Positions 1,547-62,456 of a stretch of 64,000 bases of DNA are shown here, in pieces. A model generated the notes under the pieces. The model was not told where the DNA came from. It was given only the letters and a program-made list of their open reading frames with translations, and did no database searches. A program made the translations under genes and the position numbers. The number at the start of each line of letters is the position of its first letter. Within the stretch, counting starts at the first letter, position 1. Source of the stretch: Amycolatopsis acidicola (GTDB lineage Bacteria > Actinomycetota > Actinomycetes > Mycobacteriales > Pseudonocardiaceae); assembly GCF_007713735.2 (NCBI RefSeq), contig NZ_VMNW02000008.1, positions 62,001-126,000 of the forward strand. The letters are read 5' to 3'.

Positions 1547-2844
1547 TGGCGCGCACCGACCTGCGGCGGGCGGTCCCCCGCACTGACGTGGTGCTCGCCG
1601 ATCCGCGGCTGGCCGAGGCGCACACCCGCTTCGGCCGCGAGGTGCTCAAGCGGGCGGTACACGCCGCCCAACAGGAGGTCCGCAGCGGCGCGCTCGTTCC
1701 CGAAGGGGTCGTCGAGGCGGTGCTCGCCACGCTGGGCCGGAGGCCCAGTTCACTACGACCGGTACTCAACGCGACCGGCGTCGTCCTGCACACCAACCTC
1801 GGCCGCGCACCGTTGTCCGCGGCGGCGACCGAAGCGATCACCCTGGCGGCCGGGTACACCGACGTCGAGTACGACGTGCACACCGGCGCCCGCGCGCGGC
1901 GTGGCGCGGCCGCGACCACGGCGCTGCGCAATGCTGTACCGGCCGCGCAGGACGCACTCGTAGTCAACAATGGCGCCGCCGCGCTGGTGCTCGCGGCCAC
2001 GGCGCTCGCAGCGGGGCGGAAGATCATTGTCAGCCGGGGAGAGCTCGTCGAGATCGGTGATGGGTTTCGTATTCCTGAGCTGATCGCCAGCACCGGAGCG
2101 CGGCTGCACGAGGTCGGGACCACGAACCGCACGAACATCGCCGACTACGCCGCCGCGCTCGGGCCGGACACCGGGTTCATCCTCAAAGTCCATCCCTCGA
2201 ACTTCGCCGTCCGCGGGTTCACCTCCGCGGTTTCGGTGCGCGAACTCGCCGGCCTCGGCGTTCCAGTCGTCGCCGACATCGGGTCGGGGTTGTTGCGGCC
2301 GGAACCGTCGCTGCCGACCGAACCCGATGCCCAGTCATGGCTGGCCGAGGGCGCGACCGTGGTCACCGCGAGTGGCGACAAGCTGCTCGGCGGCCCACAG
2401 GCCGGGCTGGTGCTGGGTGAAGGCGAAACCGTTCACCAGTTGCGGAAACACCCGCTTGCGCGGGCCCTTCGCGTCGACAAGCTCACCCTGGCTGCCTTCG
2501 AGGCGACGCTCACTTCCGCTGAACCCACGCCGGTCACCCGCGCCCTGCACGCCGACGCGGACACACTGCGCGCGCGGGCCGACCGGATCGCCAGGGAGCT
2601 GGCTCAGCACGGGGTCTGTGCCGAAGTCGTCGCGTCGGATGGCGTGGTCGGCGGCGGCGGCGCGCCCGAGGAGCGGTTGCCCGGCTGGGCAGTAGCTCTC
2701 CCCCAGGCATATGCCGAACTTCTGCGGGTGGGTGAGCCGTGCGTCGTCGGCCGGGTCGAGGACGGGCGCTGCTTGCTTGATCCCCGCTGCATACCCGACA
2801 GCGACGACGAACGGTTGATACTCGCGGTGCGAGCTTGCGCGTGA
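1546..2844 (+). CDS. selA: L-seryl-tRNA(Sec) selenium transferase
   Basis: SelA is a PLP enzyme that converts Ser-tRNA(Sec) to Sec-tRNA(Sec) using selenophosphate; bacterial SelA works as a large oligomer in the cytosol. The 432-residue length is typical. The PLP lysine is in the SGDKLLGGPQAG motif (about residue 279), and the N-terminal HTNLGRAP stretch and VVADIGSGLL segment are family hallmarks. ATG at 1546 shares its A with the selD stop; a TTG one codon upstream is the only alternative. The gene is followed by a very strong bidirectional hairpin terminator. Together with selB and selC downstream, this completes the bacterial Sec pathway. Confidence 0.96.
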   Translation: MARTDLRRAVPRTDVVLADPRLAEAHTRFGREVLKRAVHAAQQEVRSGALVPEGVVEAVLATLGRRPSSLRPVLNATGVVLHTNLGRAPLSAAATEAITLAAGYTDVEYDVHTGARARRGAAATTALRNAVPAAQDALVVNNGAAALVLAATALAAGRKIIVSRGELVEIGDGFRIPELIASTGARLHEVGTTNRTNIADYAAALGPDTGFILKVHPSNFAVRGFTSAVSVRELAGLGVPVVADIGSGLLRPEPSLPTEPDAQSWLAEGATVVTASGDKLLGGPQAGLVLGEGETVHQLRKHPLARALRVDKLTLAAFEATLTSAEPTPVTRALHADADTLRARADRIARELAQHGVCAEVVASDGVVGGGGAPEERLPGWAVALPQAYAELLRVGEPCVVGRVEDGRCLLDPRCIPDSDDERLILAVRACA

Positions 2845-2908
2845 TCGCACCGCGAGGAACACGATGACGACCTCAGCTGCGGCCGAGAAGCCGAAATAGC
2901 TCAAAAGC

Positions 2909-2941
2909 GCCCGCCGTCCGACCGGTGGTCGGACGGCGGGC
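2909..2941. terminator. Bidirectional hairpin terminator between selA and the UGSC operon
   Basis: A perfect 15-bp stem (2909-2923 with 2927-2941) closes a 3-nt loop GGT. It lies between the convergent ends of selA and the leftward gene ending at 2962, with an A-run on the left flank. It should terminate both transcripts. Confidence 0.85.
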
Positions 2942-2961
2942 ACTCTACTGCACTAGGGGCG

Positions 2962-4053
2962 TCAGTTCGAATGATCCGTGTTCATGCGGATCTCGCGGGT
3001 CACCGCCTGGTGCCTGGGCCCACCCCAGGACGGCATCCAGCTGGAGTGCAGGCCTGCCCCGCCGACAACCGTGATCAGGAAGTTCGACGGGTCTTTCACC
3101 ACTGGAATCGGCGTCTTGCCGTCCCATTCCCCATGCTGCGCCGGGGTGGTGCGGCGTCGTTCGATGTGCTCGGCCGACAACCGGTCGACCGGCACCCGAG
3201 CGTGCTCGAAGAGATAAGCGCGGATCTCATCCCTGCCGACCTTCTCCCGCCCCAGGATCGCGGCGTGCTCCGGGCCGAGCGCGATGAACAGGTCCGACCC
3301 GGTCGTGAACCGGAAGTTCGACGAGCCGGCGGAGGTGATGCTGTTGGCCAGGATCTTCAGGAAGCTCTCGGCCTTGGTCGCGTCCTGGCCATTGATGTCG
3401 TGCGGCCCTTCGAGACCGAGCACCGTGACGGTGCTGGCGTCCTCGGCGAACCCGCGCTCGACGTGGAACGGTTCCCACGGACTCTGTTCCTGATTCTCCG
3501 CGAAACAATAGGTGTACTTGGCCGGTGTGCCCTGGGTTGCCTTGTCGACCTCCCCCGGCTTGGCGCCACCGAGGTTGCGCAGGATCAACCGGATCGCCCG
3601 GCCGATCGTGGCGTTCGCGCGCCACCCCGGACCGAGGGCGCCCGAACCGGAATTGATGTCGAGCTTCTGGGAGACCGGGCCCGATACGAAGGTGACGATG
3701 CCGCAAGGGTGAGTTGTCGCCTGCACACCGAAGAGGTCGAACCCGCCGGTGGTCATCGCCTCGACCGCGGCGATGACCACCGGCAGGTACTCGGGTCGGC
3801 AGCCGGCCATCACCGCGTTGATCGCAATCGCCTCGACCGTGGCCGGGCCGTTCCGCGGCGGGATCTTCTCCGCGATCAGAGTGTCGGGCGCCAGCCCGTT
3901 CGCTTCGATCATGCGCGCGACCCGCTCCGGGGTCGGTGGCACGATCGGGAGCCCGTCGGTGTTACCGCGCTGGTAGAGGAACTCCTCGATGTCCTCGAGT
4001 TCGCCCTCGACCGTGAGCCGTTCCGATGCCGGCACTCCGGTCCCGGGACTCAT
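2962..4053 (-). CDS. Uncharacterised partner of the UGSC selenoprotein
   Basis: A 363-residue soluble protein whose function I do not know. It opens with a helical segment and TDGLPIVPPTPERV, then a Pro/Arg stretch IPPRNGPATVEAIAINAV and MAGCRPEYLPVV. Later it has GPGWRANATIGRAIRLIL and an N-terminal-half ATTHPCG Cys. I recall proteins with this TDGLP-IPPTPERV signature beside UGSC-family genes, but cannot verify that here. ATG at 4053 is preferred because AGGAG lies nine bases upstream; ATG at 4059 would be only three bases from it. Only 12 bases separate it from the selenoprotein stop, so the two are in one operon and probably act on the same substrate or in a complex. Confidence 0.85.
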   Translation of the reverse strand: MSPGTGVPASERLTVEGELEDIEEFLYQRGNTDGLPIVPPTPERVARMIEANGLAPDTLIAEKIPPRNGPATVEAIAINAVMAGCRPEYLPVVIAAVEAMTTGGFDLFGVQATTHPCGIVTFVSGPVSQKLDINSGSGALGPGWRANATIGRAIRLILRNLGGAKPGEVDKATQGTPAKYTYCFAENQEQSPWEPFHVERGFAEDASTVTVLGLEGPHDINGQDATKAESFLKILANSITSAGSSNFRFTTGSDLFIALGPEHAAILGREKVGRDEIRAYLFEHARVPVDRLSAEHIERRRTTPAQHGEWDGKTPIPVVKDPSNFLITVVGGAGLHSSWMPSWGGPRHQAVTREIRMNTDHSN

Positions 4054-4065
4054 GATCATCAACTC

Positions 4066-4611
4066 CTATTCCTGGCCGGTGATCAGCTTGACGAGCGTGG
4101 CGACTGCCGCCTCGGCCTTGGCCCTGACCTGGTCCTCCGGCAGCCCGGCACCGAGCGGATGCGGAACCGCGCAGATCTGGATCTCCGGCAGCCCGAGAGC
4201 CGTCGCCTCGATCTTGGCCAGCCCGTTGAACGAGGTCGTTGTCACGATCAGTGACGGGATCCCCTGCTTTTCGAGGGTGACTGCGTCATGGAGACTCCAC
4301 GACGTGCAGCTGCCTCAATCACCGAGTCCGGTCACCGCGAAATCGGTGGCGGTCTTGATCTTCTTGATGATCTCCGGCGCGACGCCGACGGTCCGGCCCG
4401 GCTTGCGGAACCGCTGAACCTCGGCCACCCCGTGGTCGCGCAGGAGCAGCTCTTCGACCCTGTCGCAGAAGATGTCGAAGTTCGGCTTGGTGTTGTCGAC
4501 GAAGGCGATTCGCAGTCCCTCCATGCTGGCAGGGCGCGGGTTGAAGAAGCTTTCGCTCGCGGCGGGCATCGTGACCGGATCAAGGATGACCGTACGTGGA
4601 CGTGGTGCCAT
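4066..4611 (-). CDS. UGSC-family selenoprotein (in-frame TGA = selenocysteine)
   Basis: The reading frame starts at ATG 4611 (GGAGG about 7 bases upstream) and meets TGA at 4315-4317 after 98 codons. It then continues open, with coherent protein sequence, to TAG at 4066-4068. Reading TGA as Sec gives 181 residues with the motif U99-G-S-C102 after TDFAVTGLGD. Downstream come SWSLHDAVTLEKQGIP, a hydrophobic strand (SLIVTTTSFNGLA) and a CAVPHPLGAG segment. UGSC proteins are a named family with either Sec or Cys at this position; the U/Cys pair three apart suggests a redox or nucleophilic active site, function unknown. Support for Sec: a hairpin at the right place after the UGA and selA, selB, selC and selD in the same 8 kb. 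Conventional annotation would truncate it at residue 98. Confidence 0.92.
4282..4308 (-). promoter_or_regulatory. SECIS-like hairpin directing Sec insertion at UGA 4315-4317
   Basis: In the mRNA, 11 nt follow the UGA, then GUCGUGG and CCAUGAC form a 7-bp stem (one G-U pair) around loop AGUCU. The stem extends by three more pairs (UGC with GCA) past a 2-nt bulge. The 11-nt spacing and a loop containing G-U-C-U resemble what I recall of the E. coli fdhF element. It lies inside the coding region, as bacterial SECIS elements do. Confidence 0.8.
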
Positions 4612-4641
4612 GTGTTCCTCCGTTTCCTGAGTGGACAAGGT

Positions 4642-6003
4642 TCAGTCTGCCGTCGACTTCTCGACGAGCAACTGGTGGGAATAGTTGTGTCGGCGGGAAA
4701 TGAGGTTGATCGCGATCGCCCCCACCAGGGCCGGGACCGCGAGGACCACGATCGTCAGCTTGAAGGGCGCTCCCCCGCCGGACAGCCCGCCCAGAACAAT
4801 CGGCCCGACGATGCCGCCGACACGGCCGAGCGCGAAGTTGTAGGCGGTTGCCGTCGAGCGCGTCGAGGGACGGTAGTACGAGGGCGAGTACGAATTGAGC
4901 AGGTTTTGCACGCTGTTGAACGCGCCGCCGGCCAGTCCCGCGAACACCAGCAGGAACACGTAGTTGTGCGTGAAACCCAGCAGCGCGATCGAAGCACCGG
5001 CGAGCAGGAACAGCACGGCGAGCACAGGGCGTGCGTCGAATCGGTCGGCGAGCCGGCCACCGATGATGCTGACCGGCACCGCCGTCAGCGCCGCAGGCAG
5101 CAGCAGGGCGATGCTGGCGGTGTCGGTATGCCCTTGATTGACCATCAACTTCGGCAGCCAGAAGCTGAAGCCGTTGTTCACATAGGTGCTGCACATGTAG
5201 CACAGCAGGAACAGCAAGGTGGGAACAGCCCGGTTGTCGCGGAAAACCTCGATCAGCGGCACCTTGGCGGCGGGCACGTCCGCGGTCAGAACGGCGTCGT
5301 CGGACAGTCGCGCGTCAGGCTGGGCGCGCCGCATGAAGTGACGCAGCCGCTCCTTCTGGCCGCTCCGGATCAGGTACCCGGTGGCCTCGGGGAGGAAGCG
5401 GTGATACAGCGGATAAAGGACGACAAGGCAGGCCGCGCCACCGAAGATCGCCCGCCAGCCGACGTGCGGCATGACCAGGATCCCGACGAGCGCTCCGGAC
5501 GCTGTTCCCAGCGACACGCCGGTCGCGACGGTCGTGCCGATCAGGGTCAAGCGGCGACGGTGCGGAATGTATTCACTGATCAGCGCCAGGACGTTGATCA
5601 AAATACCGCCGTTGACGATGCCGAAGAGCAGTCGCGCGGACGCGAACGACACGGATCCGCTGCTGATCGCGGCGAGTGCCATCGACCCATAAGAGATGAT
5701 CGTGCACGAGAGGATGATGCGCTTGCGCCCCACGCGATCGGCGAGGGGACCGAAGATCAGCGCGCCGATCAGGGTGCCGAACGCGGCCGCCGAACCGAGC
5801 GCCCCGGCTTCCCACTCACTCAGATGCAGGGCCTTGCTCAAGGTCGGTAAAGCCGCGCCATACACATAAAGGTCGTACCCCTCGGTGATCGCGAGCAACG
5901 CGCAGGCGACCAACATCTGAATCTGGAAAGCATTGACCCGCCCTTCGCCGAGCCACTTGTTCGCATTGACGGTCAACTGTTGCTGTGGGGCGATCTCACT
6001 CAC
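4642..6003 (-). CDS. MFS transporter, aromatic/organic-acid symporter type
   Basis: A 453-residue, 12-helix major facilitator. The first-half loop motif GPLADRVGRKRI and second-half GGRLADRFDARP are the two motif A copies; GYDLYVYGAALPTL in helix 1 resembles aromatic-acid:H+ symporters (MhpT/BenK/AAHS type). GTG at 6003 is chosen because AAGGAG lies eight bases upstream. It is first in the leftward operon and ends 30 bases before the selenoprotein start. It therefore probably imports the compound on which the selenoprotein and its partner act. The substrate is not determinable from sequence. Confidence 0.9.
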   Translation of the reverse strand: MSEIAPQQQLTVNANKWLGEGRVNAFQIQMLVACALLAITEGYDLYVYGAALPTLSKALHLSEWEAGALGSAAAFGTLIGALIFGPLADRVGRKRIILSCTIISYGSMALAAISSGSVSFASARLLFGIVNGGILINVLALISEYIPHRRRLTLIGTTVATGVSLGTASGALVGILVMPHVGWRAIFGGAACLVVLYPLYHRFLPEATGYLIRSGQKERLRHFMRRAQPDARLSDDAVLTADVPAAKVPLIEVFRDNRAVPTLLFLLCYMCSTYVNNGFSFWLPKLMVNQGHTDTASIALLLPAALTAVPVSIIGGRLADRFDARPVLAVLFLLAGASIALLGFTHNYVFLLVFAGLAGGAFNSVQNLLNSYSPSYYRPSTRSTATAYNFALGRVGGIVGPIVLGGLSGGGAPFKLTIVVLAVPALVGAIAINLISRRHNYSHQLLVEKSTAD

Positions 6004-6211: not shown

Positions 6212-8032
6212 CTACCGGCCGCTCGTCCGGGCGCGCCGGACCATCTCCCGATGGGTGGTGTCCACCCGGCGGGTCCAGCCGCGGCCGTCGAGGTGCTCCA
6301 GCAGCGGGACCGCCACCCGGCGAGTCGTCTGGAGAGCCTGACGCGCCTGGCTCATGGTGAACGGCTGGTCGAGCGCCGCCAGCCGACGGGCTGCCAACGC
6401 CGGCGCCGACGGCAACAAGACGACCCCGTCGAGCCGGATCAGCCGTCCGGCGCGTTCAGCGGCGGCCAGCTCCCGGGACCCCAGGCCGAGGGTGCGCAAT
6501 TCCTGGGCTTCGGGGGCATCGAACGGCTCCGCGGACAGCCGGGCTTCAACCGCGGCGACCGCTGCCGTTATCGGTCCGAGCTCGTCGCGGCTGCCGGGCA
6601 GAAGCACCTGCCCGCCATGTCGCTCGAGGCCGGCGCAGTCGATCACAGCGTCCAGCAGCACGCTGGAAGGGAGTGCCAGCAGGCCGGCAGCGGCACCCCG
6701 GGACAACCCGCCGGACAACGGATCCCGCGCATGCAATTCGGTCAGCTCCGACCGCAAGCGATCTCGCCAGGTCAAAAGGGTCGCCTCAGCCACCAGCCAG
6801 TCGCCGACAGCGCGTACTCCGGCCGGCAGGGAGCTGGCCGGAAGACCGAGCAGCTCGAGCTCACGCAGTCGGACGGCACCGCGGCGCGCGACTTCCGCGG
6901 CGAGATCACCCTCGACACCCCGCCGCGCCAGTGTGATCCCACGGCGAATGCCGTCGCCACGCCGGCTCAACTCGGGCGGGTCCACATCGAGCACGAACGC
7001 TCCGCCGAAGACCCGGCGACCGCCCGGATCACGAAGGACCAGCCGATCCCCGAGCATGAGCGGCAACGCTCGATCGAAGAACAGCCGGGCATGATCCTCG
7101 TCGAATCCTCGTACCCGTGCCGACATCGCGGCCGTACCGACGTGCACGGTGAGCTGACGCGGGGCGTCACCGAAGGAAGTCCCGCTGACTCTCCGGACGT
7201 CGACCGTGTCGGTGATCCACCATGCGCCGGGGGTTATCAGCGCGTCACCGCGATGGACCGAATCCGCGGCCGCCCCCCGGAGGTTGACCGCGGCCCGGGT
7301 GACGGGCTCCAGCGTCTCCGCGGACTCCCCCCGGCTGTGCAACCCACGGACTTGTACCTGCCGTACCGTGTTCGCACCCACCAGGCTCAGCTGATCGCCT
7401 CGGCTGAGACAGCCGGCCGGGAGTGTTCCGGTGACGACGGTGCCCGCGCCGGAAATCGTGAACGATCGGTCCACCCAGAGCCGCACCCGGTCGTCTGCCG
7501 GCGGCGGGGGCATCGCGGCCAGAACGGTGTCCAATGTGGACCGCAGTTCATCCAGCCCGGTGCCGTCGAAAGCCGAGACCGAAACCAAGGGCGCGTCGGC
7601 CAGGCCCGTGCCGGCGAGCTCCGACCGGACCTGCCGGACAACGTCGTCCAGCGGCTGCCGTGCTCGATCCGCCCGGCTGAGCACGATCACGCCGTGCCGG
7701 ATCCCGAGCGCCGCCACCGCATCGCGATGATCGTCGCTCTGCGGCCGCCAGCCCTCGTCGGCGGCGACCACGAAGCACACCACCGGTGCCGGGCCGAGTC
7801 CCGCAAGCATGTTGCCCAGGAATCGCTCGTGACCGGGCACGTCGACGAACGCGACTCGCCGGCCGGACGGCAGGGCAGTCCAGACGAACCCGAGATCGAT
7901 GGTCAGGCCCCGCCGGTGTTCCTCGGCCCAGCGATCGGGATCCATTCCGGTGAGTGTGCGGACCAGCGTGCTTTTGCCATGGTCCACATGGCCGGCCGTG
8001 GCGACGACATGGTCCATCACCGCAGAATCCAT
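6212..8032 (-). CDS. selB: Selenocysteine-specific elongation factor SelB
   Basis: SelB is the EF-Tu-like GTPase that carries Sec-tRNA(Sec) to UGA codons by binding the SECIS hairpin. The 606-residue length is typical. GTPase motifs are clear at the N terminus: P-loop GHVDHGKST, the DVPGHERF G3 motif, and a VIVLSRAD G4 motif where NKAD would be usual. Beta-barrel domains follow, then a C-terminal arm of winged helices (last ~230 residues) that in characterised SelB proteins recognises SECIS RNA. The start is 8032 or the second ATG at 8017 ([12 protein letters not shown]); neither has a strong ribosome site. It lies directly downstream of selC in the same direction. Confidence 0.95.
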
Positions 8033-8167: not shown

Positions 8168-8263
8168 TGGCGGAGGCGGACGGGAATCGAACCCGCCAGG
8201 CCGAGATACTCGGCCTCACCGGTTTTGAAGACCGAGGGGACCACCAGGAACCCTAACGCCTCC
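8168..8263 (-). tRNA. selC: tRNA-Sec (anticodon UCA), CCA encoded
   Basis: On the minus strand the 5' acceptor GGAGGCG pairs with the 3' CGCCTCC, followed by discriminator G and an encoded CCA. The anticodon UCA is at 8226-8228 within a CUUCAAA loop. A long variable arm (GGCCGAG/CTCGGCC) and a T-arm containing GGTTCGATTCC are present. Total length is 96 nt with CCA, as expected for the unusually long bacterial tRNA-Sec. A possible -10 (TATGCT, minus strand, 8279-8284) lies 15 bases upstream. This tRNA reads UGA, matching the in-frame codon at 4315. Confidence 0.96.
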
Positions 8264-8386: not shown

Positions 8387-8710
8387 TCAGAGGTACTCTT
8401 CGATGGCGCCAAGTAACACGGACTTGGGTTGGGCCCCCTTGAACGCCTTCACCACTTCACCCCCGACATACACCTGAATGGTCGGCAGACCGAGCACATT
8501 GTTGTCGGCCGGCGTCCGGGGATTGGCGTTCGTGTCCAACTTGAAGAATGCGACTTTGTCGCCATACGCCTCGGCGAGTTCATCGATGATCGGGCCGAGC
8601 TGTTTGCACGGGCCGCACCAGTCGGCCCAGTAGTCGACCAGCACGGGTTTGTCGGACTTGAGGACTTTCTCGTCGAAGTCGGCGTCGGTGACGTCGCTGG
8701 CTGCGCCCAT
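8387..8710 (-). CDS. trxA: Thioredoxin
   Basis: A 107-residue classical cytosolic thioredoxin. The active site is WCGPCK (about residues 31-36), followed by the conserved cis-Pro region GLPTIQVYVGGE. The ATG at 8710 is preceded by AAGGAG six bases upstream. It lies 64 bases after trxB in the same direction, as a trxB-trxA pair. It reduces protein disulfides with electrons from TrxB. Proximity to selC-selB is notable because selenium assimilation and redox selenoproteins often draw on thioredoxin, but a dedicated role is inference. Confidence 0.95.
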   Translation of the reverse strand: MGAASDVTDADFDEKVLKSDKPVLVDYWADWCGPCKQLGPIIDELAEAYGDKVAFFKLDTNANPRTPADNNVLGLPTIQVYVGGEVVKAFKGAQPKSVLLGAIEEYL

Positions 8711-8774: not shown

Positions 8775-9746
8775 TCACCTGGCGGCCGCCGGCTCGGACA
8801 TTGTCGCCCGATCGGCCTGGTCCGCGAGGTAGCGTTCCGCGTCCAGGGCGGCCGAGCAGCCACTGCCGGCCGCGGTGATCGCCTGCCGGTACGTGTGGTC
8901 GACCAGGTCGCCGCAGGCGAACACTCCGGGCAGGTTGGTGCGAGTGGTTCGCTCTCGGGTGAGGACATACCCCCCGGCGTCGAGGTCGATCTGCCCTTTC
9001 AGCAGCTCGGATCGCGGATCGTGGCCGACCGCGATGAACAGCCCCGAGACATCGAGGTCACGCGTCTGACCGGTCCGGGCGTCCCGAAGCGTGATCGACT
9101 CCACGGAGTCGGCCCCGTTGATCTTCTCCACCTCACAGCCCAACGCGAAATCGATCTTGGAGTCCGCCCGCGCGCGGTCGGCCATGATCTTGCTGGCGCG
9201 CAGTTCCTCGCGACGATGGACGACGGTCACCGACCTGCCGAAACGAGCGAGAAAGGTGGCCTCCTCCGTCGCCGAGTCACCACCGCCGATGACAGCGATG
9301 TCCTTGTCCTTGAAGAAGAATCCGTCACAGGTGGCACACCAGGAGACACCGTGGCCGGATAGCCGCTCCTCATCCGGTAGACCGAGCTTACGGTAGGCCG
9401 AGCCCATGGCCAGGATCACCGCCTTGGCCCGGTGGACGGCGCCCCCGGAGTCGGTGACGGTCTTGACCTCACCGGTCAGTTCCATCGTGACGATATCGTC
9501 GGCGACCAGCTCGGCGCCGAAGCGCTCGGCCTGAGCACGCATCTGCTGCATCAGTCGTGGGCCCAGCACCCCGTCGGTGAAACCGGGAAAGTTCTCCACC
9601 TCGGTCGTGTTGATCAGCGCGCCGCCGGCGGCGATCGAGCCTTCGAAGAGCAGCGGCTCCAGCTCCGCGCGCGCCGCGTAGATAGCGGCCGTATAGCCGG
9701 CAGGCCCACTGCCGACGATGATCACATCGCGCATCCGGTTGCCCAT
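8775..9746 (-). CDS. trxB: Thioredoxin reductase (NADPH)
   Basis: A 323-residue FAD/NADPH flavoprotein of the low-molecular-weight bacterial class. It shows the N-terminal FAD motif [10 protein letters not shown], the redox disulfide in [10 protein letters not shown] (about residue 140), the NADPH motif [10 protein letters not shown] and the C-terminal ACGDLVD FAD-binding segment. ATG at 9746 has AGAAGG five bases upstream; the TTG one codon earlier is less likely. It transfers electrons from NADPH to the thioredoxin encoded next to it. Confidence 0.96.
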
Positions 9747-9821
9747 CAAACCTTCTCTCTCGAGCGCGGCCCGCGCGCGGCGAGCAGACCGTCTGAATTC
9801 GTCGTCTTGTCCGAACGACCG

Positions 9822-11036
9822 CTATCGAACGGCCCCCACCGCGATATGGTCTTCGAGTTCGTCGGGCTGGATGCCGAGCAGGCCACCGAGGATTTCGTCG
9901 TTGTCCTCACCGAGTTGTGGCGCAGGCCGGGTGATCCTGGCCGGCGTACGCGAGAACAGCCACGGCGGGGCGATCGTCCGGCGTCGGCCGAGTCGAACGT
10001 GATCCACCTCGGTGATCGCTCCGCGGTGCAGGAGCTGCGGGTCGTTGAACACCTGCTCCGCGGTGAACGACGGCATCGCCGCGATGCCCGCCGCCTGGAG
10101 CTTTTCGGTGAGGTCGGAAGCGCGCCGCGTCCGTGTCCACGCCGCGATGCGCTCGTCGAGCTCTTCCTCGCGGGCCAGCCTTCCGGCTGAGGTCGCCAGG
10201 TCAGGATCGGTGGCCCACGACGGGCTGCCGAGTATGCCGACGAAGGCCGCCCAGTGGTCGTCGTCCTGGACCGCGATGCTGACCCATTCGTCGTCGCCGG
10301 CCGTGCGGTAAACGTTGTGCGGAGCCATTTGCGCGTCGTGGTTGCCGGTACGGGATGGCGACCGGCGGTTCATGGTCCAGTCCATCATCTGGTCCCCGAT
10401 GAGCTGGTTGAGCGCTTCCGAGGAGGACAGGTCGATGTACTGGCCCGCACCGGTGCGCTGCCGGATGAGCAGCGCGGCGAGAATGGCGAAGGCGCCGGTC
10501 GTGCCTGCCCTCGAATCGCCGCTGCTGGTGAGCTGGTTCGGTGTACCGTCCGCGTAACCCGTCAGGTTCGCTTGGCCCGAGAAACAGGTGAAGCAGGGAG
10601 CGTAAGCGGTGTAGGACCGGAACGGTCCCGTCGCGCCGAAGCCCGAGAGCGACAGCATGATGATGTCGGGTTTCACCGCGCGAAGCGTTTCGTAGCCCAG
10701 GCCGAGCCGGTCCATGACGCCCGGGCGCATGTTCTCCATCACGACATCGCATTTGGCGACGATCCGCTCCGCCAGCTCCACGCCACGCTCCTGCTTGAGG
10801 TTGAGCGTGACGCTACGTTTGTTGAGGTTGATTTCGAAGAAGTTCGACGACGCTTCGGGATCCTTGCTCGCGCCGGCGCCGTGCAGCACTCGCTGCTCGT
10901 CGATCTTCGACCCGCTTTCGATCTTGATGACCTCCGCGCCGAGTTCCGCCAGCAGCATCGTCGAATACGGCCCGGCGAGCACATGTCCGAAATCGGCTAC
11001 ACGAACACCGGCGAGTGGGCCCTGCTTTTCGTTCAT
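9822..11036 (-). CDS. Class III CoA-transferase (CaiB/BaiF family), second copy in operon
   Basis: A 404-residue family III CoA-transferase that would move CoA between a donor thioester and a carboxylic acid. The N terminus has the GVRVADFGHVLAGPY hallmark; the catalytic Asp is probably in SGDSRAGTTG (about residue 170). The start at 11036 is chosen for GGAAG five bases upstream and because it clears the preceding stop; ATG at 11048 lacks a site. It is third in the leftward operon after the dehydratase and a second CaiB-like protein. The adjacent pair may form a heteromer, as in some acyl-CoA-transferases, or act separately. Substrate unknown. Confidence 0.9.
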   Translation of the reverse strand: MNEKQGPLAGVRVADFGHVLAGPYSTMLLAELGAEVIKIESGSKIDEQRVLHGAGASKDPEASSNFFEINLNKRSVTLNLKQERGVELAERIVAKCDVVMENMRPGVMDRLGLGYETLRAVKPDIIMLSLSGFGATGPFRSYTAYAPCFTCFSGQANLTGYADGTPNQLTSSGDSRAGTTGAFAILAALLIRQRTGAGQYIDLSSSEALNQLIGDQMMDWTMNRRSPSRTGNHDAQMAPHNVYRTAGDDEWVSIAVQDDDHWAAFVGILGSPSWATDPDLATSAGRLAREEELDERIAAWTRTRRASDLTEKLQAAGIAAMPSFTAEQVFNDPQLLHRGAITEVDHVRLGRRRTIAPPWLFSRTPARITRPAPQLGEDNDEILGGLLGIQPDELEDHIAVGAVR

Positions 11037-11052
11037 CGAGTCTTCCATTTCG

Positions 11053-12258
11053 TCATCGCACGCTGGCTGTCGCCGGCTGGTCCTCGTAGTCGACATCGCG
11101 CCGCGAGTCGTCGAGAACTTCGTCGTTGTGCTGACCGAGAAGCGGCGCCCCGGTCGTCGGGCGCCACTCGACCCCGGAGAACCGGTACGGCCAGCCCGGG
11201 TATTCGAGAACGCCGGTGACGGGGTGGGCTATCGGCAGGAAGTACTGTCGCGCGCGAGTCTGCTCTGAGGCGTGGAACGTTTCCGCGGTCTGTGCCGGCG
11301 CACAGGCGCTCTTTTCGTTCTGTACCAGGTGAAAAACCTCGTCCGAGGTCAGCGTGGCCGCCCATTCGGCGAGGCGTTCGCGGAGCTCCGGATAGTGCTC
11401 GGACCGGCTCGCTTGCGTGGCGAATCGTTCCTCGCGCGCCCACTCGGGGCGCCCCATCGCCCTGAACAGCCCCTGCCACTGGTGTTCCGACGACAGGATG
11501 AGGATGACGTAGATCCCGTCCTTGCACCGGACGAGCGATTCGAGGAGCCGCCCCATCCCAGTCCGGTTCGGACTCACGCCGCTGTCGAGATAGCGGCGCA
11601 GCTGGGACCTCTCGAGGTGCGCCATCGCGTGCTGCTTCGAGATGTCGATGTGCTGCCCCGAACCACCACCACCGTCGCGCCAGAACAGTGCGGAAAGGAC
11701 CGCGATCGCCGCGGCGCTGCCGGCGTCGTACTCGCCGAGATAGCCGGGCCCCCGGACCGGCTCGCGGTCCAGGTTCTCCGACATCATCGGCAGCATGTAT
11801 CCCTGGCCGCTCGAGTGGTAGGTGGTCAGGTGCGTCGACGCGCGGTCGCGGTACGGGCCGTCTTGCCCGAAGGGCGTGATCGAAACCATGACGAGCCCCG
11901 GATTCACCGCCGAGAGGTCGTCGTAGCCGAGGCCGAGCTCCGAGAGCTCGCCGGGCGCACGGTCCTCGATGAGGACGTCGGCGTCAGCGATGAGCCGAAG
12001 AAACCGGGTCCTGCCCGTTGCGTCGGCGAGGTCGAGGGTGACTCCGCGCTTGTTGGTGTTGAGGTACAGGAACAGGCCGGACTTCTCCTGGTCGGGGTCA
12101 TCGCCGAGGAACGGCCCGCGGCGGCGCGCGGGATCACCCTCGGGGCGCTCGACCTTGATGACCTCGGCATCGAAATCCGCGAGGAGCTTCCCGCAGTACG
12201 GTCCCGAGACCATCTCGGCCAGCTCGACCACCTTCAGTCCGCTGAAGGGCCCGTTCAT
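11053..12258 (-). CDS. Class III CoA-transferase (CaiB/BaiF family), first copy in operon
   Basis: A 401-residue family III CoA-transferase with FSGLKVVELAEMVSGPY at the N terminus and a likely catalytic Asp in LGEYDAGSAAA (about residue 165). The ATG at 12258 overlaps the stop of the dehydratase gene in an ATGA, with GAGGG six bases upstream, so translation is coupled. It is clearly diverged from the neighbouring copy, so the pair is not a recent duplication. It probably activates the acid that the MaoC-type dehydratase or hydratase then acts on; this is inferred from order only. Confidence 0.9.
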   Translation of the reverse strand: MNGPFSGLKVVELAEMVSGPYCGKLLADFDAEVIKVERPEGDPARRRGPFLGDDPDQEKSGLFLYLNTNKRGVTLDLADATGRTRFLRLIADADVLIEDRAPGELSELGLGYDDLSAVNPGLVMVSITPFGQDGPYRDRASTHLTTYHSSGQGYMLPMMSENLDREPVRGPGYLGEYDAGSAAAIAVLSALFWRDGGGGSGQHIDISKQHAMAHLERSQLRRYLDSGVSPNRTGMGRLLESLVRCKDGIYVILILSSEHQWQGLFRAMGRPEWAREERFATQASRSEHYPELRERLAEWAATLTSDEVFHLVQNEKSACAPAQTAETFHASEQTRARQYFLPIAHPVTGVLEYPGWPYRFSGVEWRPTTGAPLLGQHNDEVLDDSRRDVDYEDQPATASVR

Positions 12259-13505
12259 CGCGCACCCTCGTTCCGGTAAGCCGAACGCGAGGGAAGCGCG
12301 ACTGTCGCCTCGCACGTCTGGTGCACCTCGCCATCCTGCGTCGTGCAGGAGCACTCGATGTCAACGAGATGGCGGCCGTCTTCTTCGTACTTGCGCGTGA
12401 CCGAGCCCGTCACTGTCGTGGTGTCGCCCATCCAAGACGGCCGACGCGTCCGGTTGCTCTGGAACACAAGGAATCCGTCATCGCCCATCCAGTTCTGGAT
12501 CGCCTTCTGCATGAGCGACTCGAACTGGCCGTGGTGGCCGTAGGCGCCGCTCCGCAGACCCGTGACACGGGCAGCGGCATCGACGAGGTGTGCCTCGGCA
12601 CGCCAGCGTGGCGCGTTCGTTTCCGGATCGACCCAGCCATGGTCCGCGACGTGCCCCCGGAGCATGTCCCAGTTGACGTTGAACGCGGACTGCTGTCCCA
12701 TCGCCGCCATCCACACGTGGACGTCGAGTGTCGTCAAGGGGCCGGCTACCACGGGGAAGAGCTCGTCGCCGGCGGAGACCTCTTCCCAGTATCGGGGCGT
12801 CGACCCGCGACGGTTCTTCTCCTCGTCCTCATACGCCTGGTGGATCGCGTCCAGCTCGTCCTCCGTGTACCGGTGCCGCGGCCTCTCGGTGAACGCACTT
12901 TCCGTCTTCTGCCTCGACTCCGCGACGATCTGCATCCGCGTCCGGTCGCGGACGGCGACAGTCTCGTTGCGCTGGTTGAGATACGTTGTCCGGTAGGTCG
13001 CCTGGAACAACCGGTACGGCACCTCGCGACGCGGCTTCTTCTCGGTCACCCCCATGTCCGTACCGAAAACATGGAACTTGTCACCAGGACGTACCGTGCC
13101 GAACCAGCGCCATGAACTGCCGCCGGCAAGGCTCCTGCCGAACCCGGGGGCGACGGTCCCCTGCCCCGCCCCGGCCTCGCCGATGCAGATGAGGATCCCG
13201 TTGGGTGCGATCACGCCACCGTGCTTGGTGAACTTCGCGTACTCGTCCCAGCGGTAGAGCGGGTTCTTGTCACCGATGCCGTCACAGAAGTGGCGGATGA
13301 GGTCCTTCGTGACCTCTTCGTTGAAAAGCGCGTAGTGCGAGTTCGGCCCCCGCTTCGAGGGAGGGGCATACGGGCTGCGCAGGTTCCCGACCTGTTCCGG
13401 GAACGCAAGATCACCGACGAGCGCGTTGCGCTCCGCCGCCCACTTGTCCACCGCGTTGTTGAACTCGTCGCTCAGCAGGTCGTTCCGGAAGCCATTGTCT
13501 GCCAC
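12255..13505 (-). CDS. MaoC/FAS1-type double hot-dog dehydratase
   Basis: A 416-residue protein with two hot-dog regions. An N-terminal FAS1-like dehydratase domain covers roughly residues 50-190 and includes HYALFNEEVTKDLIRHFCDG and RWFGTVRPGDK. A C-terminal MaoC-like domain covers about 240-400 and includes WEEVSAGDELFPVVAGPLT. Such proteins hydrate or dehydrate short or branched acyl-CoAs (for example mesaconyl-C4-CoA hydratase). GTG at 13505 has GGAGGAG nine bases upstream. First gene of the leftward CoA operon; its stop overlaps the next start. No activity can be fixed. Confidence 0.85.
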   Translation of the reverse strand: MADNGFRNDLLSDEFNNAVDKWAAERNALVGDLAFPEQVGNLRSPYAPPSKRGPNSHYALFNEEVTKDLIRHFCDGIGDKNPLYRWDEYAKFTKHGGVIAPNGILICIGEAGAGQGTVAPGFGRSLAGGSSWRWFGTVRPGDKFHVFGTDMGVTEKKPRREVPYRLFQATYRTTYLNQRNETVAVRDRTRMQIVAESRQKTESAFTERPRHRYTEDELDAIHQAYEDEEKNRRGSTPRYWEEVSAGDELFPVVAGPLTTLDVHVWMAAMGQQSAFNVNWDMLRGHVADHGWVDPETNAPRWRAEAHLVDAAARVTGLRSGAYGHHGQFESLMQKAIQNWMGDDGFLVFQSNRTRRPSWMGDTTTVTGSVTRKYEEDGRHLVDIECSCTTQDGEVHQTCEATVALPSRSAYRNEGAR

Positions 13506-13785: not shown

Positions 13786-14991
13786 CTAAGTCAACTCTGG
13801 CGTTTTGTTGATCTTGGGTTGGTGGATGAGGGGTTCGTAGCAGGTTTTGTCGCGCCAGCAGGCCCAGATGATGCGGAGCTAGGCGCGGGTGAGGATGCGG
13901 ATGGCGTGGGGGTGGCGTTTGCCTCGGGCTCGGGCCTGGTTGTAGATCGTGGCGGCCCAGTCGTTGCCGTGGCGGCTGTTGTCGGCCCAGGTGGTGAGTG
14001 CTTGTCGGGCGCGGCGGTTGACCGCGTGGCGGAAGGTGACTGCGCGGTGTTTGCCGGATTCTTTGGTGACGGGGGCGGCGCCGGTTTCGGCGGTGAGCTG
14101 GGCGAAGCTGGTGGCGCGTTCGAGCATGGGGCCGATCTCTCCGATGATCTGGGCGAGGTTGATGGTGCCGATGCGGGGCAGTCCGGCGATCAGGGCCGCG
14201 TAGGGGTGGGTGGTGGTCGCGTTGGCGATGGTGGTGTCCAGTTCGCGGATGATGGCGCGGATGGCTCGCACCGTCCGGACCTGGATGGTGACGAGCTGGG
14301 TCACGATCTGGGGACTCAGCCGGGACGCGGCGTGTGGGGCGGCGCGCAGGCGCTCGATCAGCACGCTGCCGGGTCGTCTGCCGGAGTAGCCGTGTTGTGT
14401 GCAGAACGCTTCCAGCCGGGCGGGGGTCAGGCGTGCCGCGGCCTGCGGGGTGGGGTATTGGTCCAGAAAGGACAGTGCGATGTCGCTGTCCAGGCTGGCG
14501 AAAACTGCTTTGCCGCCGGGCCAGTGTTCGTCCAGCAGGGCGGCGAGCTGGTTGACTGCGGTGATTCGAGCCTCGACGTGGTCGGAGCGTTGACGGGTCA
14601 GCGCCTGCAATTCCAGCGTTTCGGCCATGGTGGGTGTCAGGGTGCGCAGCTGGTGGCCGTCGGTGCGCAGGTAGTCGGCGAGTTTGAACGAGTCCCCGGG
14701 ATCGGTTTTGGCCCGGGCGGCACCCCAGCGAGGCCGGATGGCGTTGAATGCGTTGGGGTGTATGGGAATTACCGGATGCCCGGCGGCCAGCATCCGGTCG
14801 ACGACCAGGCCCCGGGTGGTCTCGATCGCGACCGGCAGATCGGCAGGGTCGCCGTGGCGGCGCAACCGGGCCAGCGTGGTGGTCATCCCGGTCTCGGTGT
14901 GGGCCAGGGCCCATCGGTCGGTTCTTGTTCCGGCCTGGTCGATGACGGTCACGTCATGCGAGCCGGTGGCCCAGTCCCATCCCGCGAACAC
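13786..14991 (-). pseudogene. IS110-family transposase with in-frame amber codon
   Basis: The first 370 codons encode a typical IS110 transposase: N-terminal DEDD RuvC-like domain (GWDWATGSHDVTV, the IETTRG segment, AKTDPGDSFKLADYLR) and C-terminal transposase_20 domain (LPRIGTINLAQIIGEIGP). A TAG at 13879-13881 interrupts ILTRA, after which the same frame continues as LRIIWACWRDKTCYEP to TAG at 13786. Family members normally have Trp here, so TGG to TAG is the likely lesion. The last ~31 residues would be lost, so activity is doubtful. IS110 elements lack clear inverted repeats and I could not fix the ends. The element sits between the CoA operon and the lactonase gene; nothing else is recognisable in 14992-15236. 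Confidence 0.85.
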
Positions 14992-59900: not shown

Positions 59901-60974
59901 CTAGGCGCGCACTGCGCCGGGCCAGATGTCTCCCACGGTGAAGCCGTGTCGTAGCGGGTCGTCGTCGCTGACGAAGATCTCCGACTTCGCGATGAGGTGG
60001 GCCGACCCGGTCAGGGCGGGAACGATTCCCTTGTGCTCGCCGACGACGGCTTCACGCGCCGCGCGCACGCTGTACACCTCGTCGATGATGCTCTCCTGCC
60101 GGAACTCCTCCCCCAGTGCCAGCTCGCCCTTCGCGACGAGCGCGGCGACCTGGGCGGAAGTGCCGGTGCCGCAAGGGCAGCGGTCGATGAGGCCCTGAAC
60201 CCCGGCCGGAAACCGCGGCGGCCCAGGCAGCATGGGCATCACGACCGCGGACCGGCCGTGGTTGTCGCCCGAGCGCGGGGCACTGGCGACCAGCACCGCA
60301 TCGACCGAGGAAAAGCCCGTGGCAGCCGGGTTTTCCACCGTGACCGAGGAAACCGCCGCGTTCCGCACCCGTTCGCCCAGTTCCACGATCCGCGAGGCGT
60401 TCTCCGGATCGATGGTCAGCCCGAGGTCGTCGGCGGACACGATGACGTAGAACATCCCGCCGTAGGCGACGTCGACGGTCAGCGTGCCCAGCCCCGGCAC
60501 CTCGAGCTGATGGTTGAGATGCGTGGCGAACGACGGAACATTCTCCACGGTCACGTGTTCAACCCGGTCGCCGGAGCATTTCGCGTGCGCGACAACGATT
60601 CCGGCCGGCGTGTCGACACGCACGGTGGTGATGTCCGTTGTCTGGTCGATGGGCACCACGCCGGCTTCGAGGATGGAGGACACGAAACAGAGGATGTTGC
60701 CCCCGGACATCACCGGGTAGATCGGCCGCTGGTTGATGATGACCAGTCCGACGTCGGCGGTCGGGTCGCAAGGCGGCACGACCAGGTCGGCGTTCAGCGC
60801 GGGATGACCGCGGGGTTCCTGCAGAAGCGATGTCCGCAGCCAGTCGTGGTGCTGCTCGACGTACTTCTTTTTGTCGAGCATCGTCTCGCCGGTGATGTTG
60901 AGCGGCTCCAGGCCGCCCACCACGATCCGGCACGGCGCCCCGGAGGAGTGGGCGTCGACGACGTTGATGATCAT
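59901..60974 (-). CDS. Proline-racemase-family enzyme, hydroxyproline epimerase/dehydratase-like
   Basis: A 357-residue protein. In the first active-site loop the usual Cys is replaced by Ser (VMSGGNILC), while the second Cys is retained in DRCPCGTGTSA; AFVSSILEAG-like and ADVGLVII segments fit the family. Ser/Cys pairs occur in hydroxyproline 2-epimerases and 3-hydroxyproline dehydratases, so plain proline racemase is unlikely. ATG 60974 overlaps the DHDPS-family stop (ATGA), coupling it to a lyase of the same route. Confidence 0.85.
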   Translation of the reverse strand: MIINVVDAHSSGAPCRIVVGGLEPLNITGETMLDKKKYVEQHHDWLRTSLLQEPRGHPALNADLVVPPCDPTADVGLVIINQRPIYPVMSGGNILCFVSSILEAGVVPIDQTTDITTVRVDTPAGIVVAHAKCSGDRVEHVTVENVPSFATHLNHQLEVPGLGTLTVDVAYGGMFYVIVSADDLGLTIDPENASRIVELGERVRNAAVSSVTVENPAATGFSSVDAVLVASAPRSGDNHGRSAVVMPMLPGPPRFPAGVQGLIDRCPCGTGTSAQVAALVAKGELALGEEFRQESIIDEVYSVRAAREAVVGEHKGIVPALTGSAHLIAKSEIFVSDDDPLRHGFTVGDIWPGAVRA

Positions 60975-61885
60975 GCCGCGGCCTTTCGGAAGTCGGAGAG
61001 GTACGCCGGGTCCGTGGCCTCGACGACAGCCTTCAGTGCGTCCACTTCGGACGGAACGAGCGAGAGGTAAGGCTCTCGGATGGGACCCACCTGGAGACCG
61101 AGAATGCCGCACACCGCTTTGACGGCCCCGTTGTAGGGACCGCTGATCACCGCGTTGATGAGCGGCAGGATTCCGTGCCAGATCTCGTACGCCCTGGCCG
61201 CATCCCCGGCCTCGGCCGCGCGCTGCAAGGCAGCGAAGCCGGGAGTCAGGAAGTTGGCCGCGCCGACGATGGCCCCGGCCTTTCCGGTCAGGAACGCCGG
61301 CGGGACGAGAATGTCCTCGCCGACGAACACGTCGACCCCGGGGATGGGGTCGAGCAGCAGGGAGGTCAGGGACGCGAAGTCCCCGCTCGAGTCCTTGACG
61401 ATCTCCACGGTGGGGATCAGGTCCTTGATTCGCGCCAGCGACTCACGCCCCCAGGTCACCCCCATGGCCGGCGGGTGGTTGTAGACGCAGATCGGCAGCG
61501 AGGTCGACTCGGCGACCTTCTCCAGGTAGCGGAACGCGCCGTCGAGGTCCAACGGCTCGTAGTAGGGCGTCGCGACCATGATGGCGTCGGCACCGGACTG
61601 CTCGGCGTGGCGGGCGTTGGCCACCGCCGCGCGAGTGGAGGGAGCCCCGACCTGAGCAACGACCTTCACCCGGCCCGCGACCTGCGAACAGGTCGCTTCG
61701 ATGACGGCCCGCCGCTCGTCCTCGCTCAACGCGGGAAACTCACCCGTGCCCCCGCACGGCACGAAGCCCGAAATGCCGTCCGCGATTCCCTGCTCCACGA
61801 GGGCGGCCAGGGAATCACCGTGGACCTTCTCGCCATCCTCGGTGAACGGCGTGATCATCGCCGAGATAACCCCGGAAAAGGGCAT
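60971..61885 (-). CDS. DHDPS-family lyase/deaminase
   Basis: A 304-residue barrel with Schiff-base Lys in VEIVKDSSGD, the FVPCGGTGEFPAL variant and GAIVGAANFLTPG. GGAGG lies seven bases before ATG 61885. Coupled to the racemase-family gene, it fits 1-pyrroline-4-hydroxy-2-carboxylate deaminase, or another hydroxyproline-derived deaminase, whose product 2-oxoglutarate semialdehyde would be oxidised by an ALDH such as the one at 39076. Confidence 0.88.
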   Translation of the reverse strand: MPFSGVISAMITPFTEDGEKVHGDSLAALVEQGIADGISGFVPCGGTGEFPALSEDERRAVIEATCSQVAGRVKVVAQVGAPSTRAAVANARHAEQSGADAIMVATPYYEPLDLDGAFRYLEKVAESTSLPICVYNHPPAMGVTWGRESLARIKDLIPTVEIVKDSSGDFASLTSLLLDPIPGVDVFVGEDILVPPAFLTGKAGAIVGAANFLTPGFAALQRAAEAGDAARAYEIWHGILPLINAVISGPYNGAVKAVCGILGLQVGPIREPYLSLVPSEVDALKAVVEATDPAYLSDFRKAAA

Positions 61886-61902
61886 GATTCCTCCAAAACC
61901 TC

Positions 61903-61925
61903 ATTGCAATCGATAATATGTAACG
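61903..61925 (-). promoter_or_regulatory. Promoter/operator-like AT patch
   Basis: ATTGCAATCG then GATAATATG then TAACG, immediately upstream of the DHDPS-type gene. It loosely resembles the ATTGC...GATAAT core of the site at 13605 but lacks GATTGCT. It may simply be a -10 region. Confidence 0.3.
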
Positions 61926-61961
61926 TACTACTCGGCCGGACCTGGCGCCACCGAGGCGCGG

Positions 61962-62456
61962 TCATGGCACCTGTCGGACGATCGACCCGCGGGCGATGAC
62001 CGGGTCGAGGATGCCGCCTTCGATCTCGTCGGCCGCCTCGGACAAATCCGGCGGGTTGCGGTGGGGATGCGGGTACCCGAGTTCGGCTTCCATCTCGGCC
62101 GAGTAGAGGTAGACGGACGTGACCAGCAGGGACAGCGGGTGGAACAGGTGCGGAGAGCCGGAGTCCAGCTGCCGCAGCGCGCTGAACAGTTCCCCGGTGG
62201 GCACGTCGTGGATCGCCGCGAGCGCGGCGGCCACATTGTCGAGCACGGGGTCGAGGATCGCGAGGGCTTCGGTCACGTAGTCGTCGAACGCGGCGACCTC
62301 GTCGCCCCCGGGACGGCCGTCGCCGTCGCTGGGAATGAGCACGGCCGCGACGCGGCGCAGGTCGGCCATTTCCTCCGCGGTGAGTGAGCGGCGGGCGGTC
62401 TTGCGAACCACCGGCGCCGAAAGCCGGGTGATGCCGTCGTGGTGGGTGCTGGTCAT
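61962..62456 (-). CDS. Small subunit-like protein of GMC dehydrogenase (gluconate 2-dehydrogenase subunit 3 type)
   Basis: A 164-residue protein with the subunit-3-like segment SLTAEEMADLRRVAAVLIPSDGDG and helices carrying HPLSLLVTSVYLYSAEMEAELGYP. Its ATG overlaps the stop of the GMC gene (ATGA), so the two are co-produced as a membrane-associated or periplasmic-type complex in relatives. No Tat signal is obvious in this copy. Confidence 0.75.
   Translation of the reverse strand: MTSTHHDGITRLSAPVVRKTARRSLTAEEMADLRRVAAVLIPSDGDGRPGGDEVAAFDDYVTEALAILDPVLDNVAAALAAIHDVPTGELFSALRQLDSGSPHLFHPLSLLVTSVYLYSAEMEAELGYPHPHRNPPDLSEAADEIEGGILDPVIARGSIVRQVP

Follow-up and report, generated by a model that had tools for sequence, protein, structure and literature searches.

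An in-frame TGA in a gene of the UGSC family

On the minus strand of the stretch of DNA analysed here (the window, 64,000 nt of Amycolatopsis acidicola), a reading frame ends conventionally at a TGA codon and continues coherently behind it. This raises two questions: whether the codon stops translation or is read as selenocysteine (Sec), and what the longer protein would do. The frame starts at an ATG (4609–4611), which is preceded by GGAGG (4617–4621, minus strand), a likely ribosome-binding site. It runs for 98 codons to the TGA at 4315–4317, and for another 82 codons to a TAG at 4066–4068, exactly as described in an earlier reading made from the sequence alone, which had also noted the residues U-G-S-C within it. 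With TGA translated as Sec, the gene (4066–4611, minus strand) encodes a protein of 181 amino acids, and UGSC, an instance of the U/C-G-S-C family motif, occupies residues 99–102.

The sequence-only reading had assigned this protein to the UGSC family, and two family models bear the assignment out. PF24696 matched residues 9–178 with 165 bits (cut-off 25), and the NCBIfam model NF041046, "UGSC family (seleno)protein", matched with 132 bits (cut-off 125). The window copy shares with the family both of these matches, the motif, and the occurrence of Cys and Sec forms, and it lacks none of the defining features. None of the other 79 genes that we collected is close to it, the best identity being 41%. 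In the 2008 GOS ocean survey, UGSC is among the major selenoprotein families, with 255 Sec sequences (PMC2398784), and a 2026 review groups it with selenoproteins of largely uncharacterised function (PMC13188914).

The open frame behind the TGA is weak evidence by itself, because 83 of 249 comparable frames in the window, those with 90 open codons ahead of a TGA, also stay open for 82 codons after it. We therefore rejected it as evidence for Sec. Its commonness is at the same time what speaks for the TGA being an ordinary stop, which would leave a 98-residue protein or a decaying pseudogene. Against that reading stands, in the first place, homology through the site. When the C-terminal 82 residues alone were used as a query, relatives turned up in 73 of the 76 loci, counting the window among them, with a best E-value of 3.2e-22 outside the window, which is beyond what chance gives.

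For a view of the site itself, 80 UGSC genes were collected: 45 from 42 loci of a public genome scan, 34 from 100 related whole genomes (the nearest ones, with the window's own genome included), and the window gene, leaving genes below 25 bits with the profile of alignment A1 out of the count. The sequence-only reading had named homologues that end at the TGA as the finding that would count against it; all 80 genes run on past the site. At the Sec position, 63 carry a Cys codon (55 TGC, 8 TGT), 15 carry TGA and 2 carry TAG, and no other codon occurs.

The public genome scan was run with six peptide patterns that had Cys in place of Sec, one of which was the motif itself, so the high share of Cys among the 45 genes that it yielded is partly by construction. 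The same applies to the invariance of D98–W105 in alignment A1, in which all 43 rows (one UGSC per locus, leaving out second copies of L008, L011 and L015) have eight identical residues around the motif. A less biased set consists of the 35 UGSC genes of the 100 genomes, found with the family model reading through stops rather than by motif, and here 19 genes have Cys, 14 have TGA and 2 have TAG. Across the 80 genes, Asp occupies position 98 in 74, Ser position 101 in 78 and Trp position 105 in 49, while Sec/Cys99, Gly100 and Cys102 are present in every one.

Both TAG genes belong to one genome, G074 (loci L062, L070 and L090), which is from the same order as the window. Its tRNA-Sec (RF01852, 64 bits) has the anticodon CTA, owing to which ARAGORN labelled it Pyl; the genome's other RF01852 match above the cut-off is a tRNA-Ser. 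ARAGORN was run on 10 of the 20 returned tRNA loci, and identified eight tRNA-Sec with anticodon TCA, the one with CTA, and one tRNA-Ser (L091). The last of these belongs to G087, a genome with two UGSC genes, both of the Cys form. The tree separates the two TAG genes, each of which groups with TGA genes in a different, well-supported clade; the codon therefore tracks the tRNA of the genome and not descent. G074 thus appears to use UAG for Sec, and the joint change of codon and anticodon amounts to a natural experiment on the reading of the UGSC Sec position by tRNA-Sec. The use of UAG for Sec is known in Geodermatophilus, for which a literature search returned no paper. Some species have been described as using UAG for Sec with a matching anticodon (PMC10778597).

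The label at residue 99 requires seven changes between Sec and Cys on the tree, and at least two of these are forced by well-supported branches. The tree holds only two independent Sec/Cys pairs (starred on it) and the genes are related, so that no sign test can reach significance.

The hairpin behind the codon

The sequence-only reading had described a hairpin with an AGUCU loop exactly 11 nt after the UGA. A putative SECIS element is indeed present at 4285–4303 (minus strand), with its stem beginning at 4303, 11 nt after the UGA, and ending at 4285. It can be drawn with 8 bp and an apical loop GUC, or with 7 bp and the loop AGUCU, the version described earlier. In a recent review, the bacterial SECIS model has a loop of 3–9 nt with a G in the first two loop positions, placed 16–37 nt from the UGA (PMC13188914). 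With a distance of 19 nt from UGA to loop and the apical G of its GUC loop, the window hairpin conforms to this model. Folding z-scores ranged from -2.3 to -3.4 for three stretches of 35–48 nt, and reached -1.5 for a stretch of 81 nt. By itself, the window hairpin is evidence of modest weight.

Comparison between genes with a stop codon at the site (Sec genes) and those with Cys was more informative on the stem. At 14–32 nt from the first base of the codon, the full 8-bp stem can form in 12 of 17 Sec genes versus 1 of 63 Cys genes. With at least 7 of the 8 pairs, the counts are 13 of 17 and 11 of 63, and this frequency among Cys genes indicates that the coding sequence itself accounts for part of the stem. 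The minimum free energy z-score of 48 nt averaged -1.46 in Sec genes versus -0.20 in Cys genes, and fell below -2 in 3 of the 17 and 5 of the 63, respectively. Changes on both sides were seen at 7 of the 8 pairs, and 90.4% of the alignment cells pair, versus 75.2% in shuffles.

The loop is a sharper mark of Sec than the stem. An apical GU is found in all 17 Sec genes and in none of the 63 Cys genes when two registers are allowed, a feature that was defined post hoc, after viewing the sequences, and that is present in 14 of the 17 in the main register alone. In the two independent pairs, the apical GU goes with Sec in both, while a hairpin of at least 7 of 8 pairs goes on average with Sec in 0.6, against it in 0.2, and shows no difference in 1.2. 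Where a serine stands seven codons past the Sec position, its spelling makes the same distinction: it is AGT in 13 of 13 such Sec genes and AGC in 13 of 13 such Cys genes. AGT is rare elsewhere, accounting for 6 of 167 Ser codons of the same Sec genes, and for 13 of 200 in nine gene stretches of the window. Conservation of the RNA loop for SelB would be expected to give such a difference in the spelling of one and the same amino acid.

Homology through the site in 80 of 80 genes, the TAG/CTA swap and the contrast in hairpins between Sec and Cys genes together make an ordinary stop at 4315–4317 very improbable, despite the commonness of open frames behind TGA codons. Sec at residue 99 of the window protein is instead strongly supported, as judged from these comparisons, and the claim that this copy is translated with Sec stands on Cys and Sec relatives that continue through the site, the codon and anticodon swap, a Sec-specific hairpin and the two family models. 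The gene very probably encodes a full-length selenoprotein of a known family, masked by ordinary annotation of the stop codon.

The adjoining partner and the genes around it

Directly downstream of the UGSC gene lies a gene for a protein of 366 amino acids (2962–4062, minus strand), a member of an unnamed family and the presumed second subunit. This constant partner, along with a pair of thioredoxin genes upstream, is new relative to the sequence-only reading. The partner had no family match in the Pfam and NCBIfam copies searched, so it is presumably annotated as a hypothetical protein. Searching the 45 aligned relatives against the same two collections gave a single match for one member (E 0.009), and sequence comparison of the partner with the PDB gave nothing below E 0.25.

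The partner family adjoins UGSC, or is fused to it, on the same strand in 78 of the 80 cases, with a gap of at most 374 nt; it lies downstream of UGSC in 62 of these and upstream of it in the other 16. The two misses are G011, in which the only partner match is on another contig, and one UGSC gene of G022 (contig C8), which has a weak adjacent match (E 8.3e-5). A single protein comprises both in 25 of the 76 UGSC frames, a total that counts the window copy twice; the window copy itself is of the split form. Among the 100 genomes, UGSC is found in 20, and the partner is found in the same 20, plus a weak fragment in G005 (E 8.5e-7). Because of this linkage, the fusions and the occurrence in the same genomes, it is strongly supported, on comparative grounds, that UGSC and its partner form one two-subunit enzyme. 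A fusion of UGSC to a conserved domain, Unknown_1, was also reported in the GOS survey, which places that domain in only few aquatic organisms (PMC2398784). The Unknown_1 domain is probably the partner family of the window; in contrast to the distribution given there, the partner is nearly universal beside UGSC in our set.

Some loci carry additional copies. The order UGSC-partner-UGSC-partner-partner is found in G059 (L149; the last match is partial) and in G097 (L150), and two partners lie beside a single UGSC gene on contig C1 of G074. At locus L005, a DUF6282 gene (2423–3253, checked with Pfam) directly follows the partner, and DUF6282-like genes, grouped with it by BLAST clustering, are near by in two other haloarchaea and one Bacillota MAG (L016, L017 and L029).

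In the partner alignment (A2, 45 rows, leaving out the truncated second partner of L015), R155, W196 and E189 are present in all 45 rows, H266 in 44, K182 in 43, N190 in 42 and R158 in 41. These are candidate substrate-binding residues. Two cysteines are nearly invariant as well, C88 (42/45) and C186 (41/45).

The sequence-only reading had placed the full Sec machinery within 8 kb, and the genes for tRNA-Sec, SelB, SelA and SelD were all found there. On the minus strand are SelB (6212–8032; TIGR00475, 255.5 bits, over the cut-off) and tRNA-Sec with anticodon TCA (8168–8263; ARAGORN, and RF01852 with 77.1 bits). On the plus strand are SelD (362–1546; TIGR00476, 386 bits), of which the true start is probably downstream of 362, since the match begins at residue 69 of the frame, and SelA (1543–2844; TIGR00474, 433 bits, over the cut-off). 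A tRNA-Sec gene lies within 7 kb of UGSC in two other genomes, G088 (L139, about 0.15 kb) and G097 (L150, about 6.7 kb), that is in 3 of the 8 genomes of the 100-genome set that have a Sec-type UGSC.

The remaining genes of the region share the strand of UGSC. They encode an MFS transporter (4642–6003; PF07690, 165 bits), nearest to the aromatic acid/H+ symport group, with 261 bits to TIGR00895, below the cut-off of 418.55; a thioredoxin, TrxA (8387–8710; TIGR01068, 104.7 bits, over the cut-off), the presumed reductant; a thioredoxin reductase, TrxB (8775–9749; TIGR01292, 383 bits, over the cut-off); two family III CoA-transferases (9822–11096 and 11053–12354; PF02515, 373 and 319 bits); and a FAS1/MaoC-type dehydratase-like protein (12255–13505; PF13452, 51 bits). 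From 13.5 kb down to 3 kb, the order on this strand is MaoC-like protein, two CoA-transferases, TrxB, TrxA, tRNA-Sec, SelB, MFS transporter, UGSC and partner, and SelD and SelA converge on these genes from the other side.

TrxA or TrxB homologs of at least 45% identity were found near UGSC in only six distinct places among the 76 stretches, a raw count without control. Clusters of neighbouring genes in 49 stretches, each named by one Pfam-checked representative and counted without background control, included family III CoA-transferases (13), acyl-CoA dehydrogenases (10), short-chain dehydrogenases (8) and enoyl-CoA hydratases (8).

An IS110-family transposase gene (13879–14991; PF01548) marks the edge of the Sec island. 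Far from it, at 59901–63985, the window contains genes of the proline racemase and DHDPS families and a GMC oxidoreductase gene, and proteins with similar starts were seen by eye close to UGSC in L009 and L012. The window's assembly (G000) carries a second set of tRNA-Sec, SelA, SelB and SelD genes on contig C128 (L002, L152 and L153) and, about 28 kb from them, a fused UGSC-partner gene with Sec (L002), accompanied by TrxB and CoA-transferase genes. As the stated contamination of the assembly is 6.96%, this Sec region may be that of another organism. On contig C55 (36521–38116) of the same assembly, a molybdopterin oxidoreductase frame (PF00384) with one in-frame TGA is possibly a Sec formate dehydrogenase.

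Likeness to protein B and the proposed reaction

The sequence-only reading had suggested a redox or nucleophilic enzyme. That proposal is kept here and tentatively narrowed to a nucleophile resembling that of protein B of glycine reductase, by a profile match to GRDB (PF07355). For this match, 14 GRDB proteins were translated past their TGA and compared by hhalign with a UGSC profile built from loci that were picked by patterns including the motif itself. The match has a probability of 94.6% (E 6.6e-8), spans 70 columns and places Sec on Sec. The GRDB alignment (A3) covers 14 of 18 GRDB loci, leaving out L103, L113, L116 and L117. The control comparison of UGSC with GrdE gave 5.7%. PrdB was the next NCBIfam match of UGSC (E 0.0013, 18 bits versus a cut-off of 300). 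The window protein and GRDB share, in the same order, U-G-[ST]-C-T, E-x-x-G-I and P-x-P-x-G. Six of the 17 Sec-type UGSC genes, a clade with U-G-S-C-T-S-C (L139, L140, L141, L143, L145 and L146), also agree with GRDB at the third Cys of its UxxCxxC motif, where the window copy has Trp. A relation between UGSC and the Sec domain of protein B is thus supported at the level of sequence.

UGSC was nevertheless not filed as a member of GRDB, because it lacks the N-terminal part of GRDB, because PF07355 gave no match to the window protein at E<=1, and because no match to PF07355 or PF09338 was found in the window's genome; the same PF07355 search does recover its family elsewhere. Any complex formed here therefore differs from glycine reductase. 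In 15 of the 18 GRDB loci (L104–L112, L114, L115 and L117–L120), the Pfam match ends just before Sec. PF07355 seems to miss the catalytic domain of GRDB, which may be why the relation to UGSC shows weakly in family scans.

The predicted structures help to weigh other chemistries. In the AlphaFold model of UGSC (pLDDT 92.8, pTM 0.85), five strands alternate with helices, and Sec sits between the strand of residues 91–97 and the helix of residues 100–115. The PDB structures listed as matching this model have generic alpha/beta folds (E 1.9e-4 and a TM of about 0.5 for the best), and comparison of UGSC with the PDB by sequence gave nothing below E 0.9. The partner model (pLDDT 86.8, pTM 0.89) matched class I fumarases best in a Foldseek search of the PDB, at E 1.8e-3 and a TM below 0.3; the matches to class I fumarase and to cyclic-amide-hydrolase folds were rejected as too weak for use. 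Among the Foldseek matches listed, none ties either model to a reductase of the protein B kind.

UGSC could be a selenol/dithiol-disulfide oxidoreductase, a thioredoxin-like shuttle between U99 and C102 with the partner as its redox target or docking domain. The UxxC spacing and the presence of Cys102 in 80 of 80 genes would suit such a role, as would the nearly invariant C88 and C186 of the partner, and the GOS paper calls a thioredoxin-like fold likely (PMC2398784). The model argues otherwise, however: with its five alternating strands and helices, and with no thioredoxin among the best 50 of 1624 PDB structure matches, it does not support a thioredoxin fold for UGSC. Together with the profile match to GRDB, this makes the shuttle rather unlikely.

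Somewhat less probable again is an isomerase, lyase or hydratase, in which Sec or Cys would act as an acid-base or covalent catalyst with no net reduction. The generic alpha/beta scaffold of UGSC and the weak fumarase match of the partner model would agree with it, but Cys102, present in all 80 genes, suggests a redox step. Sec is, moreover, seldom retained for chemistry of this type.

The reading that we prefer, and in its full form hold to be an even call, is a Sec nucleophile in a two-subunit enzyme, recycled by thioredoxin, that cleaves carbon-heteroatom bonds reductively. The proposed chemistry rests on the GRDB profile match, the UxxCxxC motif in 6 of 17 Sec-type genes, the PrdB match, the invariant residues 99, 100 and 102, the alpha/beta model, and TrxA and TrxB. 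Weighing against it are the short reach of the GRDB match (70 columns), the few places with TrxA or TrxB near UGSC, the genome's lack of GRDB and PF09338 matches, and a partner with no profile relation to GrdE or GRDB. The first two steps are strongly supported by the comparisons above: SelB recognises the hairpin with its GU loop and Sec is placed at UGA codon 99, and the UGSC subunit and the product of the next gene act as one enzyme. In what follows from there, UGSC may be the Sec domain known from protein B of glycine, sarcosine and betaine reductases, existing as a protein of its own. The partner would bind and polarise a small, probably carboxylate-bearing substrate, and the selenolate of Sec99 could then attack the carbon that bears the leaving group, in a C-N, C-O, C-S or C-halogen bond. 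Attack of Cys102 on selenium would free the reduced product and leave a Se-S bond, to be reset by the thioredoxin and thioredoxin reductase encoded just upstream. The MFS transporter may import the substrate, and the CoA-transferases may feed the product into catabolism via CoA-thioesters.

Parts of this scheme have published counterparts. Glycine reductase is described as thioredoxin-dependent, with a proposed selenoether step (PMC10298544). The glycine and D-proline reductases differ from the system described here in their partners, as no partner of the GrdE/PrdA type is present; the profile comparison was made with GrdE. Candidacy of the partner as GrdE (hhalign 0.1%) or as part of GRDB (0.2%) found no support. 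Since the partner is unrelated to both by profile, the pyruvoyl activating group of GrdE and PrdA has no evident counterpart in the proposed enzyme.

Closer in arrangement is the fluoroacetate reductase proposed for FarB/FarE, where cleavage of a C-F bond has been put forward for a GrdB-like pair with an MFS gene (PMC10838667). That proposal too involves a two-subunit Sec nucleophile accompanied by an MFS gene, and a subunit, FarE, without the pyruvoyl Cys. It differs in that it concerns a rumen bacterium and dehalorespiration, and in that FarE is related to GrdE, which by profile the window partner is not.

It is a real possibility, though one we hold with a little less confidence than the mechanism itself, that UGSC and its partner represent a new and widespread class of two-subunit reductases in bacteria and haloarchaea. 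Such enzymes would pair protein B's Sec domain with an unrelated subunit for substrate activation, and would cleave carbon-heteroatom bonds outside anaerobic amino-acid fermenters with thioredoxin as the donor. The constant partner and the proposed chemistry, resembling that of protein B, give the UGSC family a testable function, and UGSC expressed without its partner may be inactive.
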